In this document: positions 882-36,190 of the stretch, piece by piece
How positions within the stretch are numbered: position 1 is the first letter of the stretch
Layout: each line of letters opens with the position of its first letter
DNA from: Candidatus Methanoperedens sp. BLZ2
GTDB lineage: Archaea > Halobacteriota > Methanosarcinia > Methanosarcinales > Methanoperedenaceae
Direction: 5' to 3'
Assembly: GCF_002487355.1 (NCBI RefSeq)
Contig: NZ_NTMG01000038.1
Span: 1-37,176, forward strand
Length of the DNA: 37,176 nucleotides
Translations under genes and position numbers: made by a program
The notes under the pieces: generated by a model
Databases searched by the model: none
What the model was told of the DNA's origin: nothing
What the model saw: only the letters and a program-made list of their open reading frames with translations

Positions 882-3224
882 ATGCGAATAGGTGTTTACA
901 TCTGCCATTGCGGGTCAAATATTGCAGGGACTATAGACGTTGAAGAGGTCAGAAAACACGCCTCTATGCTAAAGGATGTGGTTGTAGCCCGTGACATACA
1001 ATTTGCATGCGGGGATTCGGGGCAGGAACAGGTAAAAAAGGATATCCTTGAAGAAAAACTTGACCGGATAGTTATGGCTGCATGCTCCCCACGCCTACAT
1101 GAGGTCACATTCAGGCGCGTGCTTGAACAATCCGGTCTCAATAAGCACTTTCTTGAAATGGTAAATATCAGGGAGCAGGGCTCCTGGGTTCATACAAACA
1201 AGAACGGGTTGGCAACGCAGAAGGTAAAGGAATTAGTGGCTATGGGGGTTGCAAGAGTAGCGCTTCTTTCCCCACTTGAAAAGAGGACAGTTCCTGCAAA
1301 TAAGGATGTCCTTGTGATAGGCGCAGGAGTGGCAGGTATCGAGGCTGCATTGACCCTTGCAAATATGGGGGTCAAAGTCCACCTCGTTGAGAGAGAACCA
1401 ACAATCGGAGGGAAAATGGCCCTTATGAATGAGGTTTTTCCCAATAATGATTGTTCCCTGTGCGTTCTTGCTCCTAAGATGTCTGATGTCCAGAACAATC
1501 CAAATATCACGCTCTACACAAATTCTGAAATAACTGGGGTAAGGGGAAGGGCAGGAAATTACCTGATAACAGGTGTGACAAAACCGCGGTATGTTGACCC
1601 CAGGAAATGCAAAGGCTGCATCGATATCTGCGCAAAAGTCTGCCCGATTGATGTTCCCAACCAGTTCGATTACGGGATAGGCGCGCGAAAATCCATATAT
1701 ATTCCCTTTGCCCAGGCTGTTCCTCTTGTAGCCTGCATTGATAAGAACTGCGTTGGCTGCGACCTGTGCAGGCTTGCATGTCCTGCTGAAGCAGTGGATT
1801 TTACCCAGAAAACCGAAGATTTCAAGTTCGATGTCGGAGCCATTATAGTTGCTACAGGATACCAGCCGTTTGATGCAGCAAGAAAGGAAGAATACGGATA
1901 CGGACGATATAAAAATGTTGTAACCAACCTTGAAGTTGAACGAATGCTAAGCGCCGCAGGCCCCACGCATGGAAGAGTGGTATCGCCATCCACAGGAGAA
2001 GATATAAAAAGTGCGGCTTTTATCCTTTGTGTGGGCTCGCGTGACGAACAGGTGGGAAACCCTTATTGCTCCAAGGTGTGCTGTATGGCTTCGATAAAAA
2101 ATGCCATGAAACTTGCTGAAAAATATCCCGATGCAAGGATATCGATACATTACATCGACATACGCGCGGGTGGAGAGATGTATGAGGAATACTACAAACG
2201 GGCACAGGAACTGGGCGTAACATTTGTTCGCGGGCGGGTTGCTGAAGTTGAGGAATCAGATGGAAAAACAATAATTCATTATGAAGATACTCTTTCTGGT
2301 GAGAAATGCAGCGACATCACAGACTTAGTCGTGCTTGCCATAGGTATGGAAGCTGATAAAGATTCCAGGCAAATAGGGAAAATGCTGAACCTCTCCACGC
2401 GTCCTGACCGGTTCTTCCAGAGCGCCCATCCAAAAATGCGCCCGGTGGAAACGCACACGAAAGGTATTTTCATTGCAGGATGCGCAAGCGGTCCCAAGGA
2501 AATACAGGTATCGATCGAACAGGGCACTGCAGCTGCTGCGAAAGCATTAAGTCTTCTTTATAAAGGAGAAATTGATATAGAACCAGCGAGTGCTTATGTT
2601 ATCCCCGACCTGTGCGACGGGTGCGGAATATGTGAAAAAATATGCGATTTCGGACGCATCAAGGTGACAGACAGGAAAGCAAGCGTTGATGAAGTAGCAT
2701 GCCGGGGATGCGGAGCATGCACAGCAGCCTGTCCGAATGGCGCTATCCAGATCAGGAATTATACGGATGAACAGATCCTGTCGCAAATAACAGAGGCAAC
2801 AAAAGAGGGCAGCGAATTCCCATTAATTGTCGGGTTCCTGTGCCATTGGTGCAGTTATGCGGCAGCTGACCTGGCAGGAAGCCTGCGAATCCAGTATCCG
2901 ACCAACATCCGGAACATCAGGGTATTATGTGCAGGAAGGATCAACCCGTCTTTTGTCCTTGAAGCCCTGCGAAGAGGAGCGGATGGTGTTCTTGTTTCAG
3001 GATGCAGGCTGGGGGAATGCCATTATACTATCGGGAACATTTGTGCAGTCCAGAGGATGAACGTACTTGGAAAGATACTTGTTGACCTTGGGTTTGATGA
3101 GCGGCGTTTCCGCGTGGCATGGATAGCAGCAAGCGAAGGTCTGAAGTTTGCCGGAATAGTGGAGGACTTCGTAAAGCAGTTAAAAGAAATAGGACCAATA
3201 GGCAGCGAGCTTAAGCAGGAGTAG
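882..3224 (+). CDS. hdrA: HdrA-MvhD fusion: heterodisulfide reductase subunit A with fused MvhD domain
   Basis: This 780-residue flavo-iron-sulfur protein is the electron-bifurcating or confurcating hub of soluble heterodisulfide reductase. The N-terminal domain starts with YICHCG (C8, C10). A Rossmann FAD site, GAGVAGIEAA, follows near residue 150. Cysteine groups CSLC (near 190), CKGCIDICAKVCP (near 243) and CVGCDLCRLACP (near 288) come next. Two C-terminal ferredoxin clusters follow: CDGCGICEKIC (from 578) and CRGCGACTAACP. From about residue 646 the protein continues into an MvhD/FlpD domain with its conserved CHWCSYAAAD, VLCAGR and GCRLGECHY cysteines, which bind a [2Fe-2S] cluster. MvhD is the subunit that passes electrons from hydrogenase, formate dehydrogenase or F420-oxidising partners to HdrA, and here it is covalently fused. 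The next gene starts 1 base after the stop. No HdrB or HdrC is in view. Confidence 0.92.
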   Translation: MRIGVYICHCGSNIAGTIDVEEVRKHASMLKDVVVARDIQFACGDSGQEQVKKDILEEKLDRIVMAACSPRLHEVTFRRVLEQSGLNKHFLEMVNIREQGSWVHTNKNGLATQKVKELVAMGVARVALLSPLEKRTVPANKDVLVIGAGVAGIEAALTLANMGVKVHLVEREPTIGGKMALMNEVFPNNDCSLCVLAPKMSDVQNNPNITLYTNSEITGVRGRAGNYLITGVTKPRYVDPRKCKGCIDICAKVCPIDVPNQFDYGIGARKSIYIPFAQAVPLVACIDKNCVGCDLCRLACPAEAVDFTQKTEDFKFDVGAIIVATGYQPFDAARKEEYGYGRYKNVVTNLEVERMLSAAGPTHGRVVSPSTGEDIKSAAFILCVGSRDEQVGNPYCSKVCCMASIKNAMKLAEKYPDARISIHYIDIRAGGEMYEEYYKRAQELGVTFVRGRVAEVEESDGKTIIHYEDTLSGEKCSDITDLVVLAIGMEADKDSRQIGKMLNLSTRPDRFFQSAHPKMRPVETHTKGIFIAGCASGPKEIQVSIEQGTAAAAKALSLLYKGEIDIEPASAYVIPDLCDGCGICEKICDFGRIKVTDRKASVDEVACRGCGACTAACPNGAIQIRNYTDEQILSQITEATKEGSEFPLIVGFLCHWCSYAAADLAGSLRIQYPTNIRNIRVLCAGRINPSFVLEALRRGADGVLVSGCRLGECHYTIGNICAVQRMNVLGKILVDLGFDERRFRVAWIAASEGLKFAGIVEDFVKQLKEIGPIGSELKQE

Positions 3225-3225
3225 C

Positions 3226-4545
3226 ATGAGCGAAGAAGAACTCAATGTTACAGTGGAAAGCGATGTCAGAGATTCGCATTTTCTCTTCACCCAGAAAACA
3301 GTGAAATCAAAAAAACTCCTTGATTATGATTACAAACGCTGCAATGGCTGCGGTTTATGTATCCAGGTATGCCCCAAAAAAGCAATTGAGCCCGGGCCGC
3401 TTATAGAAATAGCCACAGGACTGGACGCACCGCCTGTTATCATTGACCATACCAGATGTTCTTTTTGCGGTATGTGCGCCGCATTCTGCCCTGTCAGGTC
3501 GATCAGGATGAACATTAATGATAAAGACATTCTTGAGCTTGCAGAGTTTCCGCATCTTGATTCGAAAGTTGTGTTCAACGATAAATGTCTTCCCTGCCTG
3601 ATATGTGAAAAATCATGCCCGGAAGAAGCTATCAGTATTGATCTGGCATTTGCGAAAAAAGAGATACTTGCGCCATTCAAAGAGGGAAAGACCGGAGAGA
3701 TCATAGTGGACATGGAAAAATGCACATTATGCGGCGCCTGTGCGGTGTTGTGCCCTGCTTTTATTCTTGTTGAGAAAAAAGCAAAAGCAGATGACCTCAT
3801 GCCTTTTGAGGATCTTGTTGTTGATAAGGCAAAATGTGATTACTGCGGCATCTGTGTGCCCTTCTGTCCTGAAGATGCAATAAAAGTAAAGGGAGATTTT
3901 AACGACGAAGAAATTAAAAAAATTGCTCCCGAAATCACAGGTACCATCAAAGTGGATAATGATAAATGCACCCGTTGCGGCTGGTGTGAGGCGGTATGCC
4001 CGTACGATGCGGCACATGTTTCAAAACCATTTGAGGGCGAAATAGAGCTGATTGATGAAAAACTCAAAGGCTGCGACCCTGTTGGCTGCCACGGTTGTTT
4101 TAATGTCTGTCCTTCGAAAGCATGGATCATCCCGAAGGATAAGAAAATAGATGTAGTAAAGGATTTTTGCACCTACTGCGGCGCCTGTGAGAAAGCATGT
4201 CATGTTGAAGCAATAGGAGTAAAGCGAAAATTAGCAAAATATACACCTGTAACCGATACAGCCTGGTCAGAAGACTGGAAAAAAGCGATTGCAAGCCTGA
4301 CCACACAAGAGAGAGGACGTCCTGATGTATCGCGCTCGCTGCATGTGGAAAAAGAAGAAAAGAAAGTTGAACCTGCAATAGTAAAGCCTGTTATTGATCC
4401 GGTGTTAAGGAAACTTGTGGATGAAAGGATTGAAAAAATGTCATCAATTCTTGGAAACAAACAGGTAAGGCATGCATGGGAAAGAAAAGACGCTGAGACG
4501 GCATTGGCGGAAATAAAGAAACGGATGAAAAAAGATGAACAATAA
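3226..4545 (+). CDS. Polyferredoxin with eight 4Fe-4S motifs
   Basis: This 439-residue soluble protein is built almost entirely of ferredoxin-like units. Seven follow the CxxCxxCxxxC pattern: CNGCGLCIQVCP, CSFCGMCAAFCP, CLPCLICEKSCP, CTLCGACAVLCP, CDYCGICVPFCP, CTRCGWCEAVCP and CTYCGACEKACH. One is expanded to CDPVGCHGCFNVCP. That gives eight probable [4Fe-4S] clusters within residues 38-335. The last 100 residues are charged and cysteine-free (many K/E), and may dock a partner. The gene follows HdrA-MvhD with a 1-base gap, so the two are surely co-transcribed. An HdrA-polyferredoxin pair is also known from the hdrA1 cluster of Methanosarcina. The likely role is a multi-cluster electron wire between HdrA and ferredoxin- or F420-dependent enzymes. 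The precise partner is not visible here. Confidence 0.9.
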   Translation: MSEEELNVTVESDVRDSHFLFTQKTVKSKKLLDYDYKRCNGCGLCIQVCPKKAIEPGPLIEIATGLDAPPVIIDHTRCSFCGMCAAFCPVRSIRMNINDKDILELAEFPHLDSKVVFNDKCLPCLICEKSCPEEAISIDLAFAKKEILAPFKEGKTGEIIVDMEKCTLCGACAVLCPAFILVEKKAKADDLMPFEDLVVDKAKCDYCGICVPFCPEDAIKVKGDFNDEEIKKIAPEITGTIKVDNDKCTRCGWCEAVCPYDAAHVSKPFEGEIELIDEKLKGCDPVGCHGCFNVCPSKAWIIPKDKKIDVVKDFCTYCGACEKACHVEAIGVKRKLAKYTPVTDTAWSEDWKKAIASLTTQERGRPDVSRSLHVEKEEKKVEPAIVKPVIDPVLRKLVDERIEKMSSILGNKQVRHAWERKDAETALAEIKKRMKKDEQ

Positions 4546-5818: not shown

Positions 5819-6130
5819 TTAAACCTTTTTTTCTATTTTTATCATCTTTTTTTGTATTTCATCAAGCAATTGCTCATCGCTTTTGCCTTCGGTTGCAATT
5901 CCAAGATCTTTTGCCATAGTTTTGATCTTAGAGGATGAAATTTCAGCAGGTTTACTTTCTTTGCCGGGTTTATTGATATCACTTAATTCATTCTCGATCT
6001 CATTCTTTCCTTTTTTGAATTCACCTGTTGCCTTGCCAAGTGACCTGGCAAGCTCAGGGATCTTGCTCGCACCAAACAGTACGATTATTATTACAGCGAT
6101 TAATGCTATTTCAATTGGACTGAATGCCAT
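5819..6130 (-). CDS. tatA: TatA-family twin-arginine translocase subunit, copy 2
   Basis: This 103-residue protein is one of two adjacent TatA homologues. Residues 1-22 form one membrane helix (PIEIALIAVIIIVLFG). The conserved hinge and amphipathic helix ASKIPELARSLGKATGEFKKG follow, and then a charged tail. TatA oligomers form the pore through which folded, RR-signal proteins leave the cytoplasm. The tail ends with LGIATEGKSDEQLLDEI, clearly related to the tail of the upstream copy, so the two arose by tandem duplication. It starts 2 bases after the stop of that copy, so both lie on one transcript. tatC is not in the window. Confidence 0.9.
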   Translation of the reverse strand: MAFSPIEIALIAVIIIVLFGASKIPELARSLGKATGEFKKGKNEIENELSDINKPGKESKPAEISSSKIKTMAKDLGIATEGKSDEQLLDEIQKKMIKIEKKV

Positions 6131-6132
6131 AA

Positions 6133-6447
6133 TTATCCTGCAATATTTGAGGGGATTTTTGTTTCTTTTGATCTGACCTTTAATCGTATCTCTTCAACAA
6201 GCTGCTCGCTGGTCTTGTTTTTTACATCCAGGCCCATTTCAATTGCTAAATTGTGGATCTTTGTATCTTTCTCATCCATTGGTTCGCCAACTTTTTTAAT
6301 TTCTCGTTCGGTTTCCATTTGCGCTTTCTTGAATTCACCAGTTGCTTTTCCCAGCGATCTGGCTAATTCCGGAATTTTATCCGGTCCGAAAAAAATTATA
6401 GCTAATACTAATATCACAATCATTTCAGAAGGTCCGATTAGTCCCAT
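6133..6447 (-). CDS. tatA: TatA-family twin-arginine translocase subunit, copy 1
   Basis: This 104-residue TatA homologue is the first gene of the pair. The N-terminal helix reads GPSEMIVILVLAIIFFGP and is followed by DKIPELARSLGKATGEFKKA. The signature FGPxKIPELARSLG is intact. The amphipathic segment is nearly identical to that of copy 2, while the membrane helices differ (SEMIVILVL against PIEIALIAV). The copies may therefore divide TatA- and TatB-like tasks or form mixed oligomers. The shared C-terminal block LAIEMGLDVKNKTSEQLVEEI is not typical of bacterial TatA. Two bases separate it from copy 2. Confidence 0.9.
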   Translation of the reverse strand: MGLIGPSEMIVILVLAIIFFGPDKIPELARSLGKATGEFKKAQMETEREIKKVGEPMDEKDTKIHNLAIEMGLDVKNKTSEQLVEEIRLKVRSKETKIPSNIAG

Positions 6448-11914: not shown

Positions 11915-14900
11915 ATGGGGAATAAGGAAATTTTAATCGGAATAGGAATATTTGTAATACTTCTGGCGCTGGCGGGGCAAGGAAGCGCGCATTTTGCGTA
12001 TTCAGGCACAAATTGCAGTTTTTGCCACTCGCCGTCTCCACCCACATTAAATGCAAATGGTATTTTCTTTGAAGATAATCACAAATTTGATGGCCTGACA
12101 GAACCGATAACATCAGCTGCGAGTTGTACTAACTGCCATACAAATTTAACAACTGCTTTTCTTCCGCTAACGTCTAATGGTTCTTTTTATAACAGTACGC
12201 ACAGGTACAATGATACCACGTTAGCTTCAGCAAGGCTTGCACCACCAGCCTGTTCTAATTGTCATGTGGATGTCAATGCCGGTGATTTCACTTTTATCTC
12301 TGGCGCTCCGGCAACGTATCTGAAATCAACAACATGCGAAAACTGCCACAGGCTCAAGTTCGATAACTGGCGTGGCACAATGCACCGCGTAATGTTGACA
12401 GATAACAGCACTGCCCAGGACATGGGCCTTCCAACTCCACCGAATTTAACCTGGACGAATATGTCCTATGTGATAGTGGGAAAACAGGAAATGAGATACC
12501 TGAACGAATCCGGATATTTGTTCAAGAGATTCTTTGCTGAAAACGGGACATCTATGGATTATGGCCCCAGCCAGTATACATGCGGGCGTTGCCATACTAC
12601 AGGGTATAATGCAAGCAATGGTAATCAGAGCGGCCTTCCGGGTATAGTGGGGACATGGAGTGAGCCTGGCATTGCATGCGAGAGATGCCACGGCCCTGCA
12701 GGCAACGGACATCAGGTAGAAGCTAATGTGTCTGAACAGCTATGCCTGGAGTGCCATAACGGTTCAACGAGGCAGGGGCTATTCCTGTCAAGTGCCCATT
12801 CACCGCCGCTTAAAGCACCTGCAACATGCCTCAGGTGTCATTCTCCGTTCGATTATGCCAGGAATAGAACTGTAACAAGCACTACAGCTATAAATGTAGT
12901 ATGCGCAAATTGCCACAATTCCCATAATACAAGCGATGACAAGTATAGAGAGCTATTCTCGCCCGGAGGTTTCAATCAAACCTCATATGCCGATGTAAAG
13001 GATGCAAAGAACAGCTTATTTAATTCAACTGCCAGCAGGCTTCTTGTTACAGGCGGCCCAACAGGTACTCTGACCTCAGAAAAGGATGTCTATGATACTC
13101 TCAATACTCCAGCACTGATACCGACCGACAGAATTGATGATAGCTACCCCGGACCAATAGAAGTGACAGGTCCGATCTCAGAAGTACTCTGCTCCAATTG
13201 CCATTATGAACATGGATTGTCTCATATAGCTGAAGTGAACCTGACACATGCGAGGTTAAATTATCCAGGATTAGGACTTCAGCCTGCTACATGCACCGAC
13301 TGCCACATGTCAGGTACCCAGAAGAATCACTCCTTTAATGTAAAGGATGAAGTGAACTTCCCATCAAAGACCTGTTCGCGCGGCACAGAATGCCATGTAA
13401 CAAGTGATCAGAATTTGAACCATAGTATATTTTCACTGGTCCCTGAGGTAAATGAATGGAGGCAAAGCTTACACAATGAAAAAGCGAATGGTGGTTTTTA
13501 CATCAACAGCACCGGTGTTCCGAGGGAAAGAGAAAGCTCTTGCAGCAAATGCCACTCACCGTCCAACTGGAACCCCTTAAATGAAAGAGCAATGGTATCT
13601 GCGGATGATTTTAATGGTATTACATGTGCAGTTTGCCATAACATCCACGACATGGGCGACTGGCTTAATAAGACCGGAAAGGCCTATGCATGGTATAATA
13701 GAGACGCGATCCCGGTATATAATGCAACTAATGCCATAACCAGATACAAAGCAAACTATTCCATGATGGCAAACACAACAGAGTTATGTGGCAACTGTCA
13801 TTCGAATGATAATCCCAGAATTTACAGGGCAGGACCCGGCTGGAACAATACAAATGATACAACGCCAATACTACCGCACGGCTGGCCGGCAAAGGATATC
13901 TTTGTTGGCTCATGGAAGCAGACAAACCTGGCATTCGAATGTATTTCTTGCCACATGGCAACAAAGGTAACCGACCCGATGAATTTGACCGAGATGGTGC
14001 TGCCTGACAGCCAGAAGGTGAAAGGTCATTCTTTCAAAGTGAACGTTTCTTTATTGCAGAGCAACACTACCTGCGCAGGGTGCCACACAACCGGGATCCA
14101 ACCTGGTAATTTAAGTACCACAATCGAGAAAATACAGGCAGATACCCATGCAAAGTGGAATGCCACAAACACGACGGTAATGGATGCATTGGGAACAATT
14201 AATGCCTTTACAGGTGAGAAGAACCAGAGCCGTAATATGATCGCTGATGCGTACTGGAAGCTACAGATGGTGTCATCAGAAGGAAGCTGGGGTGTGCATA
14301 ATCCAGTGAAAGTAAACAATATGCTCAATGAATCCTCAACTGAGGCAAATGATGCCGTACAAGCTCTTGGGTTAACAGGGCCAGGAAATCTAAGCATAAC
14401 AAGCTTTTCTCCGACAACGCCAACAGTGATTGAGGTTGTTGGAGGTCCCACCAGAACATTTAACATTACGGTTAACCAGGCCGTGAACGTATCCTGGCAG
14501 ATTAATGAGACGGAAGTAACCAATGAAACAAATGTAACTGCATCGTCATATTCCAATTCCAGCGCAGCCCAGGGCACATGGAATGTGACTGCTGTTGCTC
14601 AGAATGCCAATGGAAGTGCGATGCAAAAATGGACCTGGGTTGTTAATCCGATACCTGTCCCAACTCCAGATTTCATCGCTAACCTCTCAGGCAGTGAGGA
14701 AGTACCACCAGTTGTCACACAGGCCCGGGGCCAGGCCACATTTATCCTCAACAATGACACTGTGCACTTCACTGTGGTCGTATCCAATATAATGAATGCC
14801 ACAGCATCACACATCCATCTTGCACCGGCAGGTCAGAATGGCCCGGTAGTGGCATTACTTTATCCCGGACCAACGAAAACAGACAGCTTCGACGGCGTAC

Positions 14901-16453
14901 TTGCGCAGGGCAATATCACGGCAGAAAATCTGACAGGTCCACTTGAAGGAATGCCTCTTAGCGCTCTGATAGATAATATGACGGCTGGTAATACATATGC
15001 TAATGTGCATACTGTTCAGAACCCCGGAGGCGAGATTCGGGGACAGATAAAAACAGTAGTACCAGTGACCCAGGAATTCAACATCTCAGGATTCAAGATC
15101 GATAACAATGGAACGGGTCTTGCGAACTGGAATATCATCCTGACAAGACCAGATAGCACAGTCATGAACAATATAACAGATGCGAGCGGCATGTACCAGT
15201 TCATGAATTTGTCAAACGGCACATATACTGTCGCAGAACAGATGCAGCCAGGATGGACAAATGTATCTGCGATGCCTGTGCAAGTCACTATAAACGGTGC
15301 AGATGTGATGAATCAGAACATCACTAACAGGCAGGTGCAGCCAGGAGAAACATTCAAGATTTCGGGATTCAAGCTCGATAGCAACGGAACGGGTCTTGCG
15401 AACTGGACCATCATGTTAACAAAACCAGATAGTACAGTCCAGAACAGTGTAACCGATGCCAGCGGCATGTACCAGTTCATGAATTTGCCCGGCGGCACAT
15501 ATACTGTTGCAGAACAGATGCAGCCGGGATGGACAAACGTATCTGCGATGTCTATGCAAGTCACCATCGCAGGTTCGGACATGATGAACCGGAACTTCAC
15601 AAATGCAATGATATCCCAGCAACCAAATGTAACATCCTTCGAGCTAACACCCGGTAAAACTGCTGCACTGAAAGGAAGCACCATAACCATAACAATAAAA
15701 GCTCTAAATGCTAATGTAACAGATACGACCTTTAATGGAATGGCGAATATAACTGTTAATGCAAGCAAGAATGCAAGCGCTGTAATATATCAGCCAAACG
15801 TAACATTCAGCAATGGGATAGCTATCCTGCCAGTGACTTCAAATATGGCTCAGTTCGTAACGGTTACAGCAACAAACGGCAGCATAACAGGCAGCACAGA
15901 GATCGCATTCGCAGATATGGTATTTGACCTGGATCCGGGTTGGAATTTAATATCTGTCCCGAACTTCGCAGATCCGGGCAGTGTTGGCCTGATACTGAAG
16001 AACGTGAAGAACAACGGAGTTGCCGGATACGATCCTGGAAATAAGACCTTCTCCACGCCCGCTGACCTGCAACCCCTGTATGGGTACTGGATCAATGTTA
16101 CTGCACCCAACCAGAGTATTGGATTCATTGCAGATACGAATATCAGATCCGTACCGCCAAGCAGGGACCTCTTTGAAGGCTGGAATCTTATCGGGGTCGT
16201 TGCAAGTAAGCAGGAGCAGAATAGAGAACTGGACGCAGGCCTGCTTTTCCAGCCCCTCCAGGCAGGTGGAAAACCGCTGTATTCATACCTGATATCCTAT
16301 AAGAATCCCCACAGGACTTACACTGTCGGCGATGATCTGACAGCTCGTACACCATTGAATAAGGGACAGGGATACTGGCTCTTTATGAATACATTGACCG
16401 GTACAAACAAGGACAGCCTGGTTTGGGGAGGAAAGCCATGGCTGCCTAATTAA
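11915..16453 (+). CDS. Giant secreted multihaem c-type cytochrome with CHRD, repeat and S-layer-like modules
   Basis: This is a 1512-residue exported protein. A signal peptide (1-25, IGIFVILLALAGQGSA) is followed by sixteen CXXCH haem sites, first C34 and last C720, plus an irregular CSRGTECH (C487-H494) with five residues between the cysteines. Residues about 740-830 form a helical segment with SSEGSWGVHNPVKVNNML, like the C-terminal bundle of NrfA/c552-type cytochromes. Then come a PKD-like domain (about 830-915), a CHRD domain (919-1046, SGSEEVPP, HIHLAPAGQNGPVVALL), two 92-residue SpaA/SdrD-like repeats (from about 1054 and 1146), an Ig-like unit (about 1240-1330) and a C-terminal module with DPGWNLISVP and EGWNLIGV. 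No C-terminal membrane anchor is seen. It is rich in NxS/T sites. The likely role is extracellular electron transfer while embedded in the S-layer. Confidence 0.9.
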   Translation: MGNKEILIGIGIFVILLALAGQGSAHFAYSGTNCSFCHSPSPPTLNANGIFFEDNHKFDGLTEPITSAASCTNCHTNLTTAFLPLTSNGSFYNSTHRYNDTTLASARLAPPACSNCHVDVNAGDFTFISGAPATYLKSTTCENCHRLKFDNWRGTMHRVMLTDNSTAQDMGLPTPPNLTWTNMSYVIVGKQEMRYLNESGYLFKRFFAENGTSMDYGPSQYTCGRCHTTGYNASNGNQSGLPGIVGTWSEPGIACERCHGPAGNGHQVEANVSEQLCLECHNGSTRQGLFLSSAHSPPLKAPATCLRCHSPFDYARNRTVTSTTAINVVCANCHNSHNTSDDKYRELFSPGGFNQTSYADVKDAKNSLFNSTASRLLVTGGPTGTLTSEKDVYDTLNTPALIPTDRIDDSYPGPIEVTGPISEVLCSNCHYEHGLSHIAEVNLTHARLNYPGLGLQPATCTDCHMSGTQKNHSFNVKDEVNFPSKTCSRGTECHVTSDQNLNHSIFSLVPEVNEWRQSLHNEKANGGFYINSTGVPRERESSCSKCHSPSNWNPLNERAMVSADDFNGITCAVCHNIHDMGDWLNKTGKAYAWYNRDAIPVYNATNAITRYKANYSMMANTTELCGNCHSNDNPRIYRAGPGWNNTNDTTPILPHGWPAKDIFVGSWKQTNLAFECISCHMATKVTDPMNLTEMVLPDSQKVKGHSFKVNVSLLQSNTTCAGCHTTGIQPGNLSTTIEKIQADTHAKWNATNTTVMDALGTINAFTGEKNQSRNMIADAYWKLQMVSSEGSWGVHNPVKVNNMLNESSTEANDAVQALGLTGPGNLSITSFSPTTPTVIEVVGGPTRTFNITVNQAVNVSWQINETEVTNETNVTASSYSNSSAAQGTWNVTAVAQNANGSAMQKWTWVVNPIPVPTPDFIANLSGSEEVPPVVTQARGQATFILNNDTVHFTVVVSNIMNATASHIHLAPAGQNGPVVALLYPGPTKTDSFDGVLAQGNITAENLTGPLEGMPLSALIDNMTAGNTYANVHTVQNPGGEIRGQIKTVVPVTQEFNISGFKIDNNGTGLANWNIILTRPDSTVMNNITDASGMYQFMNLSNGTYTVAEQMQPGWTNVSAMPVQVTINGADVMNQNITNRQVQPGETFKISGFKLDSNGTGLANWTIMLTKPDSTVQNSVTDASGMYQFMNLPGGTYTVAEQMQPGWTNVSAMSMQVTIAGSDMMNRNFTNAMISQQPNVTSFELTPGKTAALKGSTITITIKALNANVTDTTFNGMANITVNASKNASAVIYQPNVTFSNGIAILPVTSNMAQFVTVTATNGSITGSTEIAFADMVFDLDPGWNLISVPNFADPGSVGLILKNVKNNGVAGYDPGNKTFSTPADLQPLYGYWINVTAPNQSIGFIADTNIRSVPPSRDLFEGWNLIGVVASKQEQNRELDAGLLFQPLQAGGKPLYSYLISYKNPHRTYTVGDDLTARTPLNKGQGYWLFMNTLTGTNKDSLVWGGKPWLPN
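15074..15604 (+). repeat. Tandem 276-bp coding repeat inside the cytochrome gene
   Basis: Two adjacent units offset by exactly 276 bases (92 codons) encode ISGFK(I/L)D.NGTGLANW domains ending in the EQMQPGWTNVSAM motif. Long stretches are identical at DNA level, for example GGAACGGGTCTTGCGAACTGG and AGCGGCATGTACCAGTTCAT, so the duplication is recent or kept similar by recombination. Each unit resembles a SpaA/SdrD-type prealbumin-like stalk domain. Confidence 0.85.
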
Positions 16454-16531: not shown

Positions 16532-16882
16532 CTAAACCCCAGGCACCACATAAATCCCTTTTGCAGTTTTAACGATATTGACCTCATTCCCCAGCTCCAC
16601 GCTCAGAAATTCCGGCCTTTTGATAGTAACCGACTCATAAGTTTCAGGGTCCATGACCTGTATCGTGCTTTCCTCATCCGCAACCAGTACTGCGGGAATT
16701 GCATCGAGTCTCCTGCTCAATTTCTTTACGACTATCAGATCATTGAAATTTTCCATGAACCTTTTTCCGGTTTCAAGGTCGAAGGCGCTCACATGCTTTC
16801 CACAGTTTTGGATTTTAATAACTTTTTCCCCACTCTTATAATATCCCCCTTCACGAATTCCAAGAGACGAAGAGCGATGCCT
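16532..16882 (-). pseudogene. nmd3: 5'-truncated, frameshifted copy of the nmd3 3' end
   Basis: Residues from QNCGKHVSAFDLETGKRFME to NEVNIVKTAKGIYVVPGV match the end of the intact nmd3 at 17812 almost residue for residue, and by eye the DNA is roughly 85-90% identical over about 345 bases. Homology goes further upstream in another frame (ALRLLEFVKGDIIRVG), so one base is missing near 16830 and the reading frame is broken. Homology stops near 16882. The first two thirds of the gene, including both zinc motifs, are absent, so no functional Nmd3 can be made. Together with the intact gene it forms a direct repeat around the TumE-type module. Confidence 0.85.
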
Positions 16883-17082
16883 CCTGATAATGAGAGCGAT
16901 CTCTATACAACAGATGATGAACATGTTCGTCGTGGGTGGAGGAAGTATGCCTGTATCAGTACAAGTTGCTTTTGCGAGTGGTGTAACAGGTGCATTCTTT
17001 CTGCGATCATCACAGTGCCTGCAATTATTGTTTCGGCAATGCGGAGGAAGGGGAATATGGGTGGCGGGAATGGTTTATAAAA
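16883..17082 (+). pseudogene. Decayed fragment of a membrane protein
   Basis: One plus-strand frame reads MNMFVVGGGSMPVSVQVAFA and SGVTGAFFL from about 16914. A neighbouring frame continues SAIITVPAIIVSAMRRKGNM and GGGNGL to TAA (17078-17080). Joined by a single frameshift near 17000 they give a coherent hydrophobic segment with a positively charged tail, as in the last helix of a membrane protein. Neither frame alone is convincing. The fragment lies between the truncated nmd3 copy and the toxin-antitoxin-like pair. No family is recognised. Confidence 0.35.
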
Positions 17083-17811: not shown

Positions 17812-18852
17812 TCAAGGCACAACAAAAATCCCCTTGGCGGTTTTAACGATATTGACTTCATTCCCCGGCTCTGCACTCAGGAATTCCGGCCTTTTGATGG
17901 TAACTGACTCATAAGTTTCAGGGTCCATGACCTGTATCGTGCTTCCCTCATCCGCAACCAGTACCGCGGGAACCGCATCCAGTCTCCTGCTTAATTTCTT
18001 TACGTCTATCAGGTCATTGAAATTTTCCATGAACCTTTTTCCTGTTTCAAGGTCGAGGCCGCTCACATGCTTTCCGCAGTTCTGGACTTCAATGACTTTA
18101 TCTCCAACGCTTATAATATCCCCTTTGACGAATTCAGGAAGCCGAAGGGCGAACGTGATCCGGTAAAGGTCTACGCCGTTCTTCTGTCCCACGAGCTTGG
18201 GAAATTCCAGGAATTTTCCTCCGAAAACTTCAATGATCGCCCTGCAAATCTGCTTTCCGAGCTTCATTGAGCCCACATAAAAATCAATGCCTTCTTCAAG
18301 ATCAAGAGTTTGTGAAATGAATGCAAGCCTGTCGCCCTTTTCCCGTGAGCGTTCTGAAACATCTTTCGCGATCTGTGTGCATTTTTTAAGTTCTTCACTC
18401 GTCGGGAGGCGTTTATCCGCGCGTATCTGGACAATGCCCTCAAAATAACCCCCGGATATCCTGCTGCACGTATCGCAGGTCTCCCAGCTGATCCTCATCT
18501 CCGTATCAAGCGAAGATTCGACCGATGCATCCTTGATTTTAGCGCTTGCATCTACATGTACCCTGTATCTTGAATAATCAAGGAACTTTGGTGTTATTGT
18601 CAATTTCAGGTCATCAGCATCGTTGTCTATTTTTAGTGACTCATTTACACATTCCCGGACGGTCTTTTCCTCATCCTCCCTTGATGACCATCGACCTTTC
18701 TTGAACACGGAACCGCAAGTCCGGCATATGCGCGAATAAAGGACTGCGGGGCACTCGATCAGGGTCCTGTTTCCCGTGAAGCATTCCAGGCATATGTTTT
18801 CAAAAAAAACATCCGTATCTTTACCGCATTTTGGACAGAATAAAGTTGCCAT
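17812..18852 (-). CDS. nmd3: Archaeal NMD3-related ribosome-associated protein
   Basis: This 346-residue protein has the Nmd3 layout. An N-terminal zinc pair FCPKCGKDTD / NICLECF comes first, then a second site ICRTCGSVFKKGRW, a middle region with ETCDTCSRISGGYFEGIVQIRA, and SH3/OB-like C-terminal domains (FVKGDIISVGDKVIEVQNCG, GSTIQVMDPETYESVTI). In eukaryotes Nmd3 is the export adaptor of the 60S subunit; in archaea the role is thought to be in large-subunit handling or translation, with little direct evidence. Its start overlaps the stop of the galE-like gene (TAATG), so it is the second gene of that operon. Its last third is duplicated 1.3 kb downstream. Confidence 0.9.
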   Translation of the reverse strand: MATLFCPKCGKDTDVFFENICLECFTGNRTLIECPAVLYSRICRTCGSVFKKGRWSSREDEEKTVRECVNESLKIDNDADDLKLTITPKFLDYSRYRVHVDASAKIKDASVESSLDTEMRISWETCDTCSRISGGYFEGIVQIRADKRLPTSEELKKCTQIAKDVSERSREKGDRLAFISQTLDLEEGIDFYVGSMKLGKQICRAIIEVFGGKFLEFPKLVGQKNGVDLYRITFALRLPEFVKGDIISVGDKVIEVQNCGKHVSGLDLETGKRFMENFNDLIDVKKLSRRLDAVPAVLVADEGSTIQVMDPETYESVTIKRPEFLSAEPGNEVNIVKTAKGIFVVP

Positions 18853-34304: not shown

Positions 34305-34955
34305 TCAGATTAATTCTTTAATTTTTTCCAGAACGAGAATGGCATCCTGATATTTTATATCAATTTCATTCAGTTTAATAAAGTCAAGTAATTTTTTCTT
34401 TTCAATTCCTGAGATAATTCCATTTTTCTCACTTTCGAATACGACATTCTGGTAATTCCTGTCAGGATAGAATAACTTCCGGGCGACCCCAATGATAGCA
34501 GCTGCCTGTACCGGGTCTATAACTCCCGCATTTTTTGCAGCCTCAACTGTCATCCTGATATTAACAAGCGGAACAGAAAGCGCTTCATTTGATCCTGCAT
34601 CAAAAGTCACAGCAACCTCATCGTCCGATTCAATGACCCCGTTCCTGTACATCTCAAAAACTTTTCCTACACCGATCATGCCATAGGTTTCAAGCTCAGA
34701 AGCTCTAAGTGCTCCCATACTTCCCCCTCCGACAACGATTATTCCACTTTTTAAGGCTTCAATTATTTCCCGGTGAGCTACTGCCGCATTATCAAAAAAA
34801 ACACCGTCAATTATCCCGATTATTTCCGGGGGTGATGCAAGAGTAACAATACGCCTGAGATCATGACGCCTCACAGGCGCACGATAATCCGCATCCAGTA
34901 TTTTTCTTGCATCGCTGTGGCTTATGCTCGTTCCTGTATACACCACAGGCTTCAT
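34305..34955 (-). CDS. TfuA-like protein
   Basis: This 216-residue partner of YcaO has TfuA motifs VYTGTSISHSDARKIL, PVRRHDLRRIV, IIGIIDGVFFD, GGGSMGALRASELETYGMIG and KVFEMYRNGVIESDDEVAV. TfuA helps the YcaO enzyme take sulfur in thioamide formation; in methanogens the pair installs the thioglycine in McrA, the key subunit of methyl-coenzyme M reductase. Its ATG overlaps the ycaO stop by 4 bases (ATGA), so the two are made together. The C-terminal 60 residues are charged and helical. Confidence 0.88.
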   Translation of the reverse strand: MKPVVYTGTSISHSDARKILDADYRAPVRRHDLRRIVTLASPPEIIGIIDGVFFDNAAVAHREIIEALKSGIIVVGGGSMGALRASELETYGMIGVGKVFEMYRNGVIESDDEVAVTFDAGSNEALSVPLVNIRMTVEAAKNAGVIDPVQAAAIIGVARKLFYPDRNYQNVVFESEKNGIISGIEKKKLLDFIKLNEIDIKYQDAILVLEKIKELI

Positions 34956-36190
34956 TTAGACACTCTCTTTTTCTTTTTCTTGATACGGTCCCCTTTTCTT
35001 TCACGGTCAAGCGTATAAAGTTCAAACATCGGGATTATCGCCCTTACTACCGGGATATCAACGCCTCTTGAAAGATTTACGATTATTGCGCCATCAGCTA
35101 TTGTATCAAGCCGCTCTAAAACTGTTTTTATGTTGGCAGCAGGCGTATTATTTGAGATGTCCTCCAGCTCATCCATATGGACTTTATCAAGATCTTCATA
35201 CCAGTAGCTGTTCATCCGTTTCATATGATCATAGCCAAAGGTTCTTACCACCTGTTCCCTGTCAGTATCCTCGCGCGCTCCGTGTATCTGTACGACCCGG
35301 CTTTGCGCAGCTTCTGTCAGCGCCCTTGTGACCGCAATTTCGGGTGTCAGATGCGAACCAGCTCCCATAACAAGAAGAGCCGGGTCTTTAAGGACTACAT
35401 CATCAAGCGCTGTTACGACAGTTGGGATGTCAATATCAGAATCAAGCAGCCAGATCTTTACATTAATGCCAGCAGCTTCCAGTTTTCTTTTAAGTGTGTA
35501 ATTCAACCCGTCTTTTTCGGTAAGCACTATTTCTTTTCCGGGATTCCGGGTGTATTCAGATATACTTAGTGAATCCCTTTCTATAACTTCAAGCAATCCA
35601 TGAAGTATCGCTTCCTCTATTGTATTTCCTGAAGCAAGGCCGTTGGTATTGCTCCGGAACAGCTTGTTCCCGCCCCGGGGCTCATAGGGATGGAAAACCG
35701 CATTTGCGGGAACGAAGACTTCAACATCGTTTAAAATGTCATCCCCCATGATCCATTCAAGTTTTGTGAATTCAGCAACACGCTGAGGAAGAAGAAGAGC
35801 ATCAGGGTATAGTGTGGGATAGCTCTCGCATAGTGACTCGTATGTATCTGTAACCGTCTCTGTTTGCAGCTTGACGCCACTGAGATTTACGCTTACCTCA
35901 GGCTGCTCAGCAAGGCAGCGCTCAAAACTTTCCATTATCGCAGATATCCTTGCATTTGTTTCTGTTGAGCCTTTTCCGGAGTATATGGATATTGCGCCTG
36001 CGGCTGCGCTTGGCCTGATAGCCGAGAAAACGGGTATACCAACGCGGTCAAGATCAGTGATATTTGCAATTCGGGTCACGCCTATCTTCGGGAGAAGCTT
36101 CATAGTATTTGCCAGTGTGGTTTCAGGGTCAAATACGCGCTGTGTGCCTTCAAGATATTTGATATTCGGATCTATTTTTATAGCGCTCAT
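34952..36190 (-). CDS. ycaO: YcaO-type ATP-dependent cyclodehydratase/thioamidase
   Basis: This 412-residue YcaO-fold enzyme activates a backbone amide with ATP. Recognisable segments are AAGAISIYSGKGSTETNARI, SAIMESFERCLAEQPE (the conserved S..E..E nucleotide/Mg region), EAILHGLLEVIERDSLSISE and ALTEAAQSRVVQIHGARED, with PEIAVTRAL. The family's frequent proline-rich C-terminus is replaced by a lysine-rich tail (RKGDRIKKKKKRVSK). Together with TfuA the likely substrate is the glycine of McrA, giving thioglycine; this follows from the known methanogen pair, not from anything in this window. It diverges from the membrane protein at 36260. Confidence 0.9.
   Translation of the reverse strand: MSAIKIDPNIKYLEGTQRVFDPETTLANTMKLLPKIGVTRIANITDLDRVGIPVFSAIRPSAAAGAISIYSGKGSTETNARISAIMESFERCLAEQPEVSVNLSGVKLQTETVTDTYESLCESYPTLYPDALLLPQRVAEFTKLEWIMGDDILNDVEVFVPANAVFHPYEPRGGNKLFRSNTNGLASGNTIEEAILHGLLEVIERDSLSISEYTRNPGKEIVLTEKDGLNYTLKRKLEAAGINVKIWLLDSDIDIPTVVTALDDVVLKDPALLVMGAGSHLTPEIAVTRALTEAAQSRVVQIHGAREDTDREQVVRTFGYDHMKRMNSYWYEDLDKVHMDELEDISNNTPAANIKTVLERLDTIADGAIIVNLSRGVDIPVVRAIIPMFELYTLDRERKGDRIKKKKKRVSK

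Follow-up and report, generated by a model that had tools for sequence, protein, structure and literature searches.

An HdrA2-polyferredoxin gene pair in Candidatus Methanoperedens BLZ2 and its probable HdrC2B2 partner encoded on another contig

With what does an HdrA protein work when neither hdrB nor hdrC lies beside its gene? This question is raised by contig C6 of the Candidatus Methanoperedens BLZ2 genome (85 contigs, 3.74 Mb), the whole of which, at 37,176 bases, constitutes the window analysed here. An ORF at 882-3224 (+) encodes a 780 aa HdrA with a fused C-terminal MvhD domain, and is followed after a single base, on the same strand, by an ORF at 3226-4545 (+) encoding a 439 aa polyferredoxin, a layout consistent with co-transcription. 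A sequence-only reading had recognised this pairing of an HdrA-MvhD fusion with an eight-cluster polyferredoxin, and both ORFs, the MvhD domain and the 32 cysteines of the polyferredoxin bear it out. It had further proposed that the operon, having no hdrBC, might use another disulfide or a different electron partner. A small ORF between the contig end and hdrA2 (391-690, -), with an MJ1316 domain (PF04457, 37.8 bits), lies outside the unit, and a tRNA scan of the window found no tRNA. Promoter-like sites (10, against 7.8 in shuffles) and terminator-like sites (6, against 3.3) were not used, because the scan applied bacterial patterns to an archaeon.

By its sequence, the product of the first gene is assigned to HdrA2, a type Ia HdrA, scoring 1267.5 bits against the cut-off of 1100 of the curated model NF040770, and it shares 59-64% identity with the four Methanosarcinaceae sequences in the alignment. 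The FlpD/MvhD domain (PF02662, 160.2 bits against a cut-off of 22.3) occupies residues 649-771, encoded at 2826-3194 (+), and its cysteines 654, 657, 683, 708 and 713 are invariant across 22 aligned sequences, this one included. Across the aligned stretch, 26 of the 31 cysteines of the HdrA in PDB 5odc are kept, including Cys197, the other five lying by eye outside CxxC-type motifs, and on the FAD side K409 and E356 of that structure are matched by K406 and E353. A structure model of HdrA2 (pLDDT 63, pTM 0.41) was too weak, and was dropped from the fold searches. Because the MvhD domain is fused to HdrA2, a separate delta subunit is not required, and in this respect both the domain match and the literature on Methanosarcina acetivorans HdrA2 agree with the earlier reading. 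Separate mvhD genes, which that reading had considered as possible substitutes for the domain, do exist in the genome, but they belong to two other Hdr clusters, on C27 and C51, that also contain FrhB-like genes. Two mvhD-fused hdrA genes had already been reported in the BLZ2 genome paper.

The absence of hdrB and hdrC held within the window, but not in the rest of the genome. Three HdrB queries gave no tblastn match in the window at E <= 0.01, and the HdrC and FrhB queries matched there only the ferredoxin parts within the hdrA2 and polyferredoxin genes. As the window is the whole contig, only 881 bases lie upstream of hdrA2, such that hdrBC might have been hidden directly past the assembly break; however, no hdrB or hdrC ORF was found in any of the six relatives with approximately 10-13 kb upstream of hdrA2 (ORFs of at least 80 aa, blastp E <= 1e-8), this being the DNA of relatives rather than that of BLZ2 itself. 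Elsewhere in the genome, the CCG domain of HdrB has 22 matches spread over several clusters. Contig C53 carries hdrC and hdrB as a free-standing pair, each scoring above its equivalog cut-off (HdrB, TIGR03288, 431 bits against 345; HdrC, TIGR03290, 182 bits against 160). The idea of an orphan operon was rejected on the CCG matches and the NCBIfam naming of this pair.

Such a split layout is already published for the same HdrA type. In M. acetivorans, hdrA2-polyferredoxin (MA2867-2868) and hdrC2B2 (MA4236-4237) are described as two operons (PMC9963511), hdrA-pfd is reported to be expressed coordinately with the unlinked hdrCB (PMC2838876), and HdrA2B2C2 activity has been reported in a study that also notes HdrA2 and HdrB2 homologues in Ca. 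Methanoperedens nitroreducens (PMC5296606). These descriptions share with BLZ2 an MvhD-fused HdrA, a polyferredoxin gene and an hdrCB pair elsewhere, although BLZ2 oxidises methane and has additional Hdr clusters. The pair is therefore largely ordinary, being of a kind already known from M. acetivorans. Given the C53 genes and this precedent, another disulfide is unnecessary to explain the layout. The absence of hdrB and hdrC from the window and from the upstream DNA of the relatives is what such a reading, or that of a quite different electron partner, has in its favour; yet it is highly improbable, as hdrB and hdrC genes over the equivalog cut-offs are present in the genome, the split layout has a published counterpart, and all four genes stand together in Methanothrix/Methanosaeta loci. 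Rather, the hdrA2-pfd operon is quite likely to be part of a soluble, flavin-based bifurcating or confurcating heterodisulfide reductase of the HdrA2B2C2 type, partnered by the C53 HdrC2B2, with the polyferredoxin as an FwdF-type wire.

The distribution of the C53-type genes across relatives is consistent with this partnership. A free-standing hdrC-hdrB pair, with no full hdrA within 12 kb (7.9 kb in one case), was found at all five Methanosarcinaceae places and likewise in all three relatives, and with flanks of approximately 1.5 kb the pair is free-standing in genomes of Methanoperedens, Methanosarcina, Methanococcoides, Methanohalophilus, Methanolobus and Methanohalobium. Every one of the 28 hdrA2-bearing genomes in the window's family encodes a C53-type hdrB (at least 75% identity), and a match is present in 45/45 Methanosarcinaceae; the wider hdrB count of 115/119 at E <= 1e-60 includes weak, non-orthologue-like matches. 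In the HdrB tree, the C53 protein clusters with the free-standing Methanosarcinaceae type (97/98). Against the partnership, C53-type hdrB also occurs in genomes without hdrA2 (e.g. G013, 63%), and some members of its clade adjoin another HdrA (L098/L216, L113, L204 and L209). Likewise against it, in ANME other than ANME-3, HdrB2C2 is described as pairing with HdrA1 (Chadwick 2022, PMC9012536).

A second candidate partner is the hdrC-hdrB pair on contig C42, which would make one HdrBC module common to two HdrA proteins. In all four Methanothrix/Methanosaeta loci with full context (L096, L097, L102 and L104), the order is HdrA2+MvhD, polyferredoxin, hdrC, hdrB; the first two genes and their order are those of BLZ2, whereas the attached hdrB belongs to the C42/C27 clade and not to that of C53, and it is this that brings C42 into consideration. 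No close C53-type hdrB was found in the three such genomes searched (30-32%). Nevertheless the C42 hdrBC already adjoins its own HdrA gene in BLZ2, another, weakly MvhD-fused one, while Methanosarcinaceae that keep hdrA2-pfd have no C42-type hdrB above 34% (10/10 searched), the C53-type match being the one found throughout that family. As an orthologue of HdrC2B2, C42 was considered the weaker fit, C53 being closer to the free-standing Methanosarcinaceae type; it is retained as a rival partner for the HdrA2-pfd pair, albeit an unlikely one.

The polyferredoxin gene adjoins hdrA2 in most genomes of the window's family (27 of 34) and in 45/45 Methanosarcinaceae searched, using coordinates from searches at E <= 1e-200 and E <= 1e-25 with the best candidates per genome scored; these counts omit second, weaker HdrA matches (G006, G055, G067 and G109), an N-terminal fragment in G027 and an additional, small fragment of the polyferredoxin in G047. 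In G022 the two genes lie near the ends of different contigs, and the sole HdrA match of G011, 46% identical with an internal stop, is probably not HdrA2. The adjacency recurs in three Archaeoglobi loci (L108, L114 and L116), but not in L109, L110 or L115. The 32 cysteines, which form eight [4Fe-4S] motifs, are all invariant across 23 aligned sequences, this one included.

The closest known proteins are the FwdF/FmdF subunits of formylmethanofuran dehydrogenase (PDB 5t5i, 5t61, 7bkb and 7bkc), chains of which are the best PDB sequence matches. The best of five structure models (pLDDT 84.4, the other four ranging from 70.5 to 34.8) has a predicted FwdF fold, matching FwdF 5t61_L (Z 27.6 by VIA, Foldseek E 2.9e-32) and FmdF 7bkc_K (Z 23.7), the common fold covering residues ~4-361. 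Eight [4Fe-4S] motifs are likewise readable in the aligned row of FwdF 5t5i, although a review gives each monomer six clusters (PMC11656701). The protein differs in being encoded beside hdrA2 rather than fwd/fmd, in a C-terminal tail of ~80 residues, and in scoring 261-262 bits with its best curated match, the FwdF model NF042909, under the cut-off of 375; no match exceeded that cut-off in 119 genomes of the order, with the best 16 candidates per genome scored. Like MvhB it is linked to Hdr complexes, but MvhB is a worse match (90 against 202 bits) and is described with 12 clusters (PMC12350162).

The polyferredoxin may wire HdrA2 to formylmethanofuran dehydrogenase. In Methanosarcinaceae, taking each genome's best fwdB match at E <= 1e-40, the gene lies within 10 kb of hdrA2-polyferredoxin in 31/45, a raw count over related genomes that are not independent events. 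BLZ2's own fwd genes are on contigs C77 and C30, not alongside the polyferredoxin; in the window's family, judged by eye, the best fwdB match is never close to hdrA2, and the two share a contig only in G007, ~27 kb apart. Alternatively, the polyferredoxin could be a mere soluble electron buffer, or serve Rnf or another donor, with HdrA2 using an ordinary 2[4Fe-4S] ferredoxin; this concerns the polyferredoxin alone, and is compatible with the HdrA2B2C2 assignment. It is a substantial possibility, though short of an even chance. M. acetivorans HdrA2B2C2 is reported to work with ferredoxin and no polyferredoxin, and the recombinant polyferredoxin, its clusters incomplete, neither replaced ferredoxin nor stimulated the reaction (PMC5296606), which also speaks against a wire; furthermore, Rnf has been proposed as a partner (PMC2838876). 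Against a mere buffer stand the adjacency kept over families and in Archaeoglobi, the predicted FwdF-type fold, and the finding of no second FwdF-type protein in the BLZ2 genome.

Within the favoured HdrA2B2C2-type enzyme, HdrA2 would carry FAD and ferredoxin-type clusters, and would itself meet the mid-potential carrier F420, via the fused MvhD domain or a site near FAD. M. acetivorans HdrA2 is reported to interact itself with F420 and ferredoxin (PMC5296606), while type Ia HdrA is elsewhere described as having no recognisable F420 site, with the F420 mechanism called unclear (PMC12054007). C53 HdrC2B2, from its separate hdrCB pair, would provide the CoM-S-S-CoB site, and the polyferredoxin would carry low-potential electrons. 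In a methane oxidiser, the enzyme would on balance oxidise CoM-SH, CoB-SH and reduced ferredoxin, or take up formylmethanofuran electrons, and reduce F420. More tentatively, and rather doubtfully, the polyferredoxin might dock HdrA2B2C2 onto formylmethanofuran dehydrogenase, such that formylmethanofuran electrons enter a confurcating Fwd-Pfd-HdrA2B2C2 assembly directly, bypassing free ferredoxin, as an F420-linked counterpart, run in reverse, of the Fmd-Hdr supercomplex of hydrogenotrophic methanogens. Once correctly placed, the pair no longer stands as a false 'orphan HdrA', and a candidate hdrBC can be named for it. Were the polyferredoxin truly the link between HdrA2 and formylmethanofuran dehydrogenase, it would provide a concrete protein route by which the electrons of CO2 formation reach confurcation in nitrate-dependent methane oxidation.

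The sequence-only reading described an HdrA protein with a fused MvhD domain, followed by an eight-cluster polyferredoxin, and this description holds because of the domain and model scores of the former, its retained residues, and the 32 cysteines of the latter. The hdrA2 gene (882-3224, plus strand) encodes a 780 amino acid protein scoring 1267.5 bits against the curated HdrA2 model NF040770, relative to a cut-off of 1100, with the MvhD domain (PF02662) at C-terminal residues 649-771 (160 bits). When aligned to the HdrA chain 5odc_A, 26 of the 31 aligned cysteines of that chain were retained, including Cys197, the significance of which comes from the available text of PMC9012536. The FAD-side residues K409 and E356, highlighted in the accessible sections of PMC12054007 (which count 308 HdrA2-1 sequences), are present as K406 and E353. 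A single base separates hdrA2 from the polyferredoxin gene (3226-4545, plus strand), the 439 amino acid product of which has 32 cysteines in total, grouped into eight motifs of four, every cysteine being invariant across 23 aligned sequences.

The same reading had observed that neither hdrB nor hdrC is in the window, and proposed that the pair may use another disulfide or a different electron partner. The absence itself stands, as a search for the HdrB CCG domain across the genome (3,735,583 bases in 85 contigs) found 22 matches, none of which were on the window's contig. However, the surprise disappears once the genome is read as a whole: of three HdrB/HdrC sets included in an NCBIfam scan, on contigs C53, C42 and C27, only the free-standing C53 pair exceeded the curated cut-offs (HdrB at 431 bits against 345; HdrC at 182 against 160). 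Nor were the genes found beyond an assembly break, with no hdrB or hdrC reading frame in about 10-13 kb upstream of hdrA2 in any of the six relatives fetched. The hdrA2-polyferredoxin pair is genuine, but belongs to a type already known. According to the available text of PMC9963511, HdrA2B2C2 of M. acetivorans is encoded in two distinct operons, with HdrA2 and its polyferredoxin in MA2867-2868 and HdrC2B2 in MA4236-4237; the parts seen of PMC2838876, in which the numbers 1 and 2 are swapped, describe hdrA-polyferredoxin as an operon expressed coordinately with the unlinked hdrCB. Excerpts of PMC3160891 cite MA2868, MA4236 and MA4237 as up-regulated on acetate, and those of PMC5296606 characterise the recombinant enzyme, and name HdrA2 and HdrB2 homologues in Candidatus Methanoperedens nitroreducens.

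Among 119 genomes of the order, the polyferredoxin gene directly follows hdrA2 in 27 of the 34 from the window's family, and in all 45 of f5, the family taken as Methanosarcinaceae because its members G107 and G108 agree in coordinates and scores with the named Methanohalobium and Methanococcoides genomes. The seven exceptions in the window's family comprise one pair split over contig ends, three genomes with the polyferredoxin only, and three with neither. Both genes are present, on separate contigs, in 11/17 genomes of family f2 and 14/17 of f3, the remainder having one or neither, while neither was detected in the six f4 genomes at the thresholds used. In its available text, PMC9012536 (Chadwick 2022) names this gene HdrA14, and describes ANME-2 and ANME-3 as largely without clear gene clustering, the polyferredoxin being located elsewhere in most of their genomes. 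The arrangement in f2 and f3 resembles this description, whereas that in the window's family does not.

The C53 HdrB matched 115 of the 119 genomes (E <= 1e-60), and hdrB of this type was present at a minimum of 75% identity in every hdrA2-bearing genome of the window's family (28 of 28). It adjoins hdrC, with no full hdrA nearby, at 5/5 f5 places and in 3/3 relatives fetched; at two of the f5 places, hdrB has a MinD-type neighbour, the ferredoxin part of which gives a weak HdrA match of about 55-60 bits. Across 14 genomes reached through named loci, inspected with short flanks, hdrCB was free-standing in Methanoperedens, Methanosarcina, Methanococcoides, Methanohalophilus, Methanohalobium and one of two Methanolobus copies, and adjoined HdrA in the other Methanolobus copy, Methanosarcinales SMBSF02 and Methanolliviera. 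Genomes of Methanothrix/Methanosaeta and Archaeoglobi gave matches to the C53 protein of only 30-46% identity. In a tree of 22 HdrB proteins, with 7/19 inner forks unresolved and one long bacterial row, C53 clustered with the free-standing f5 proteins (support 97/98), in a clade shared with two Methanolobus proteins whose gene clusters contain another HdrA.

A rival partner for HdrA2 and its polyferredoxin is the HdrBC encoded on C42, a pair adjoining its own HdrA. All four Methanothrix/Methanosaeta loci with full context (L096, L097, L102 and L104) have the order HdrA2 with MvhD, polyferredoxin, hdrC, hdrB, which links the pair to hdrBC directly; C42 stays a rival because the HdrB of these loci falls in the clade of C42 and C27. 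Among the 80 top matches to named genomes, out of more than 590, the polyferredoxin directly follows the MvhD-fused HdrA at 17 of 21 loci, judged by eye (the exceptions being L105, L109, L110 and L115), leaving out the truncated L095 and L120, and the Asgard L170, where the fused HdrA is in a larger cluster; most other loci in these 80 have HdrA without the fusion. Within BLZ2, the genome paper (PMC5690323) reported four hdrA copies, two fused with mvhD. We also found two fusions, in the window and, more weakly, on C42 (42 bits, cut-off 22.3), but six HdrA-type reading frames: one each on C6 (the window) and C42, and two each on C27 and C51. The latter contigs carry two similar Hdr clusters (C27:50-62 kb and C51:2.5-14 kb), with a double HdrA (1019 aa), another HdrA, two stand-alone mvhD genes, a gene resembling FrhB that scores under its cut-offs, and one reading frame judged by eye to be of molybdopterin type.

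Elsewhere in the window, a 1512 amino acid protein (11915-16453, plus strand), with 16 CxxCH motifs and MtrC/MtrF-like, CHRD and SpaA/prealbumin-like domains, is a candidate extracellular electron-transfer cytochrome. On the minus strand are an NMD3-family gene (17812-18852); a 130 amino acid reading frame (16532-16924) partially copying the C-terminal part of that neighbour (89% identity over 97 residues), with small reading frames in between; adjoining TfuA and YcaO genes (34305-36190); and two adjoining TatA-like genes (5819-6447), the first with a TatA_B_E domain and the second sharing 43% identity with the first over 99 residues.

Several observations together suggest that the polyferredoxin may act as a wire between HdrA2 and formylmethanofuran dehydrogenase. 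Firstly, its best matches among PDB sequences were FwdF/FmdF-type chains (202 to 166 bits), followed by MvhB (90 bits), and its predicted fold (pLDDT 84 for the best of five models, 70 to 35 for the rest) resembles FwdF chains 5t61_L (Z 27.6, rmsd 13.7, 326 aligned) and 5t5m_F (Z 27.1, rmsd 4.2, 272 aligned), and FmdF chain 7bkc_K (Z 23.7, rmsd 3.6, 275 aligned), with the next different family at Z 8.9. Secondly, it is the sole FwdF-type protein found in BLZ2, at 262 bits against 41 for the next best of all 106 candidates scored; it is under the FwdF model cut-off, which none of the best candidates scored per genome reached across the 119. Thirdly, neither the C77 set of fwd genes (C, A, B, D) nor the C30 set (B, D) has an F subunit alongside. 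A relative, G052, has an fmd-type cluster (L093:5926-11936), in part assigned by eye, that includes an F-type polyferredoxin of its own (219 bits). Fourthly, in 31/45 f5 genomes C30-type fwdB lies on the strand opposite hdrA2 and less than 10 kb away from it, being farther along the same contig in eight and on another contig in six; the distance to the pair is 1.2-9.3 kb in those 31 and at locus L092. This proximity, of which a limited search of partly available literature found no mention, makes a functional link possible, although the lack of any best fwdB match near hdrA2 in the window's own family, judged by eye, counts against it. Finally, the available text of PMC12350162 describes M. 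hungatei FmdF as bound to the inserted ferredoxin domain of HdrA, and that of PMC11493965 describes FwdF as needed for large Fwd complexes. Rnf was proposed as a possible polyferredoxin partner in the parts seen of PMC2838876.

Gene content, gene order, conservation and cofactor residues form the observed basis of a mechanism from which we infer the assembly, direction and partners of the HdrA2 complex. The entry point for F420 electrons would be either the MvhD domain or a site close to the FAD; PMC12054007, as far as its text was available, recognises no F420 site in HdrA2, and suggests there is room near the FAD. HdrA2 itself would most likely exchange electrons at the level of F420, with high-potential electrons most likely passing between it and HdrC2B2, and low-potential electrons most likely passing between it and ferredoxin or the polyferredoxin.
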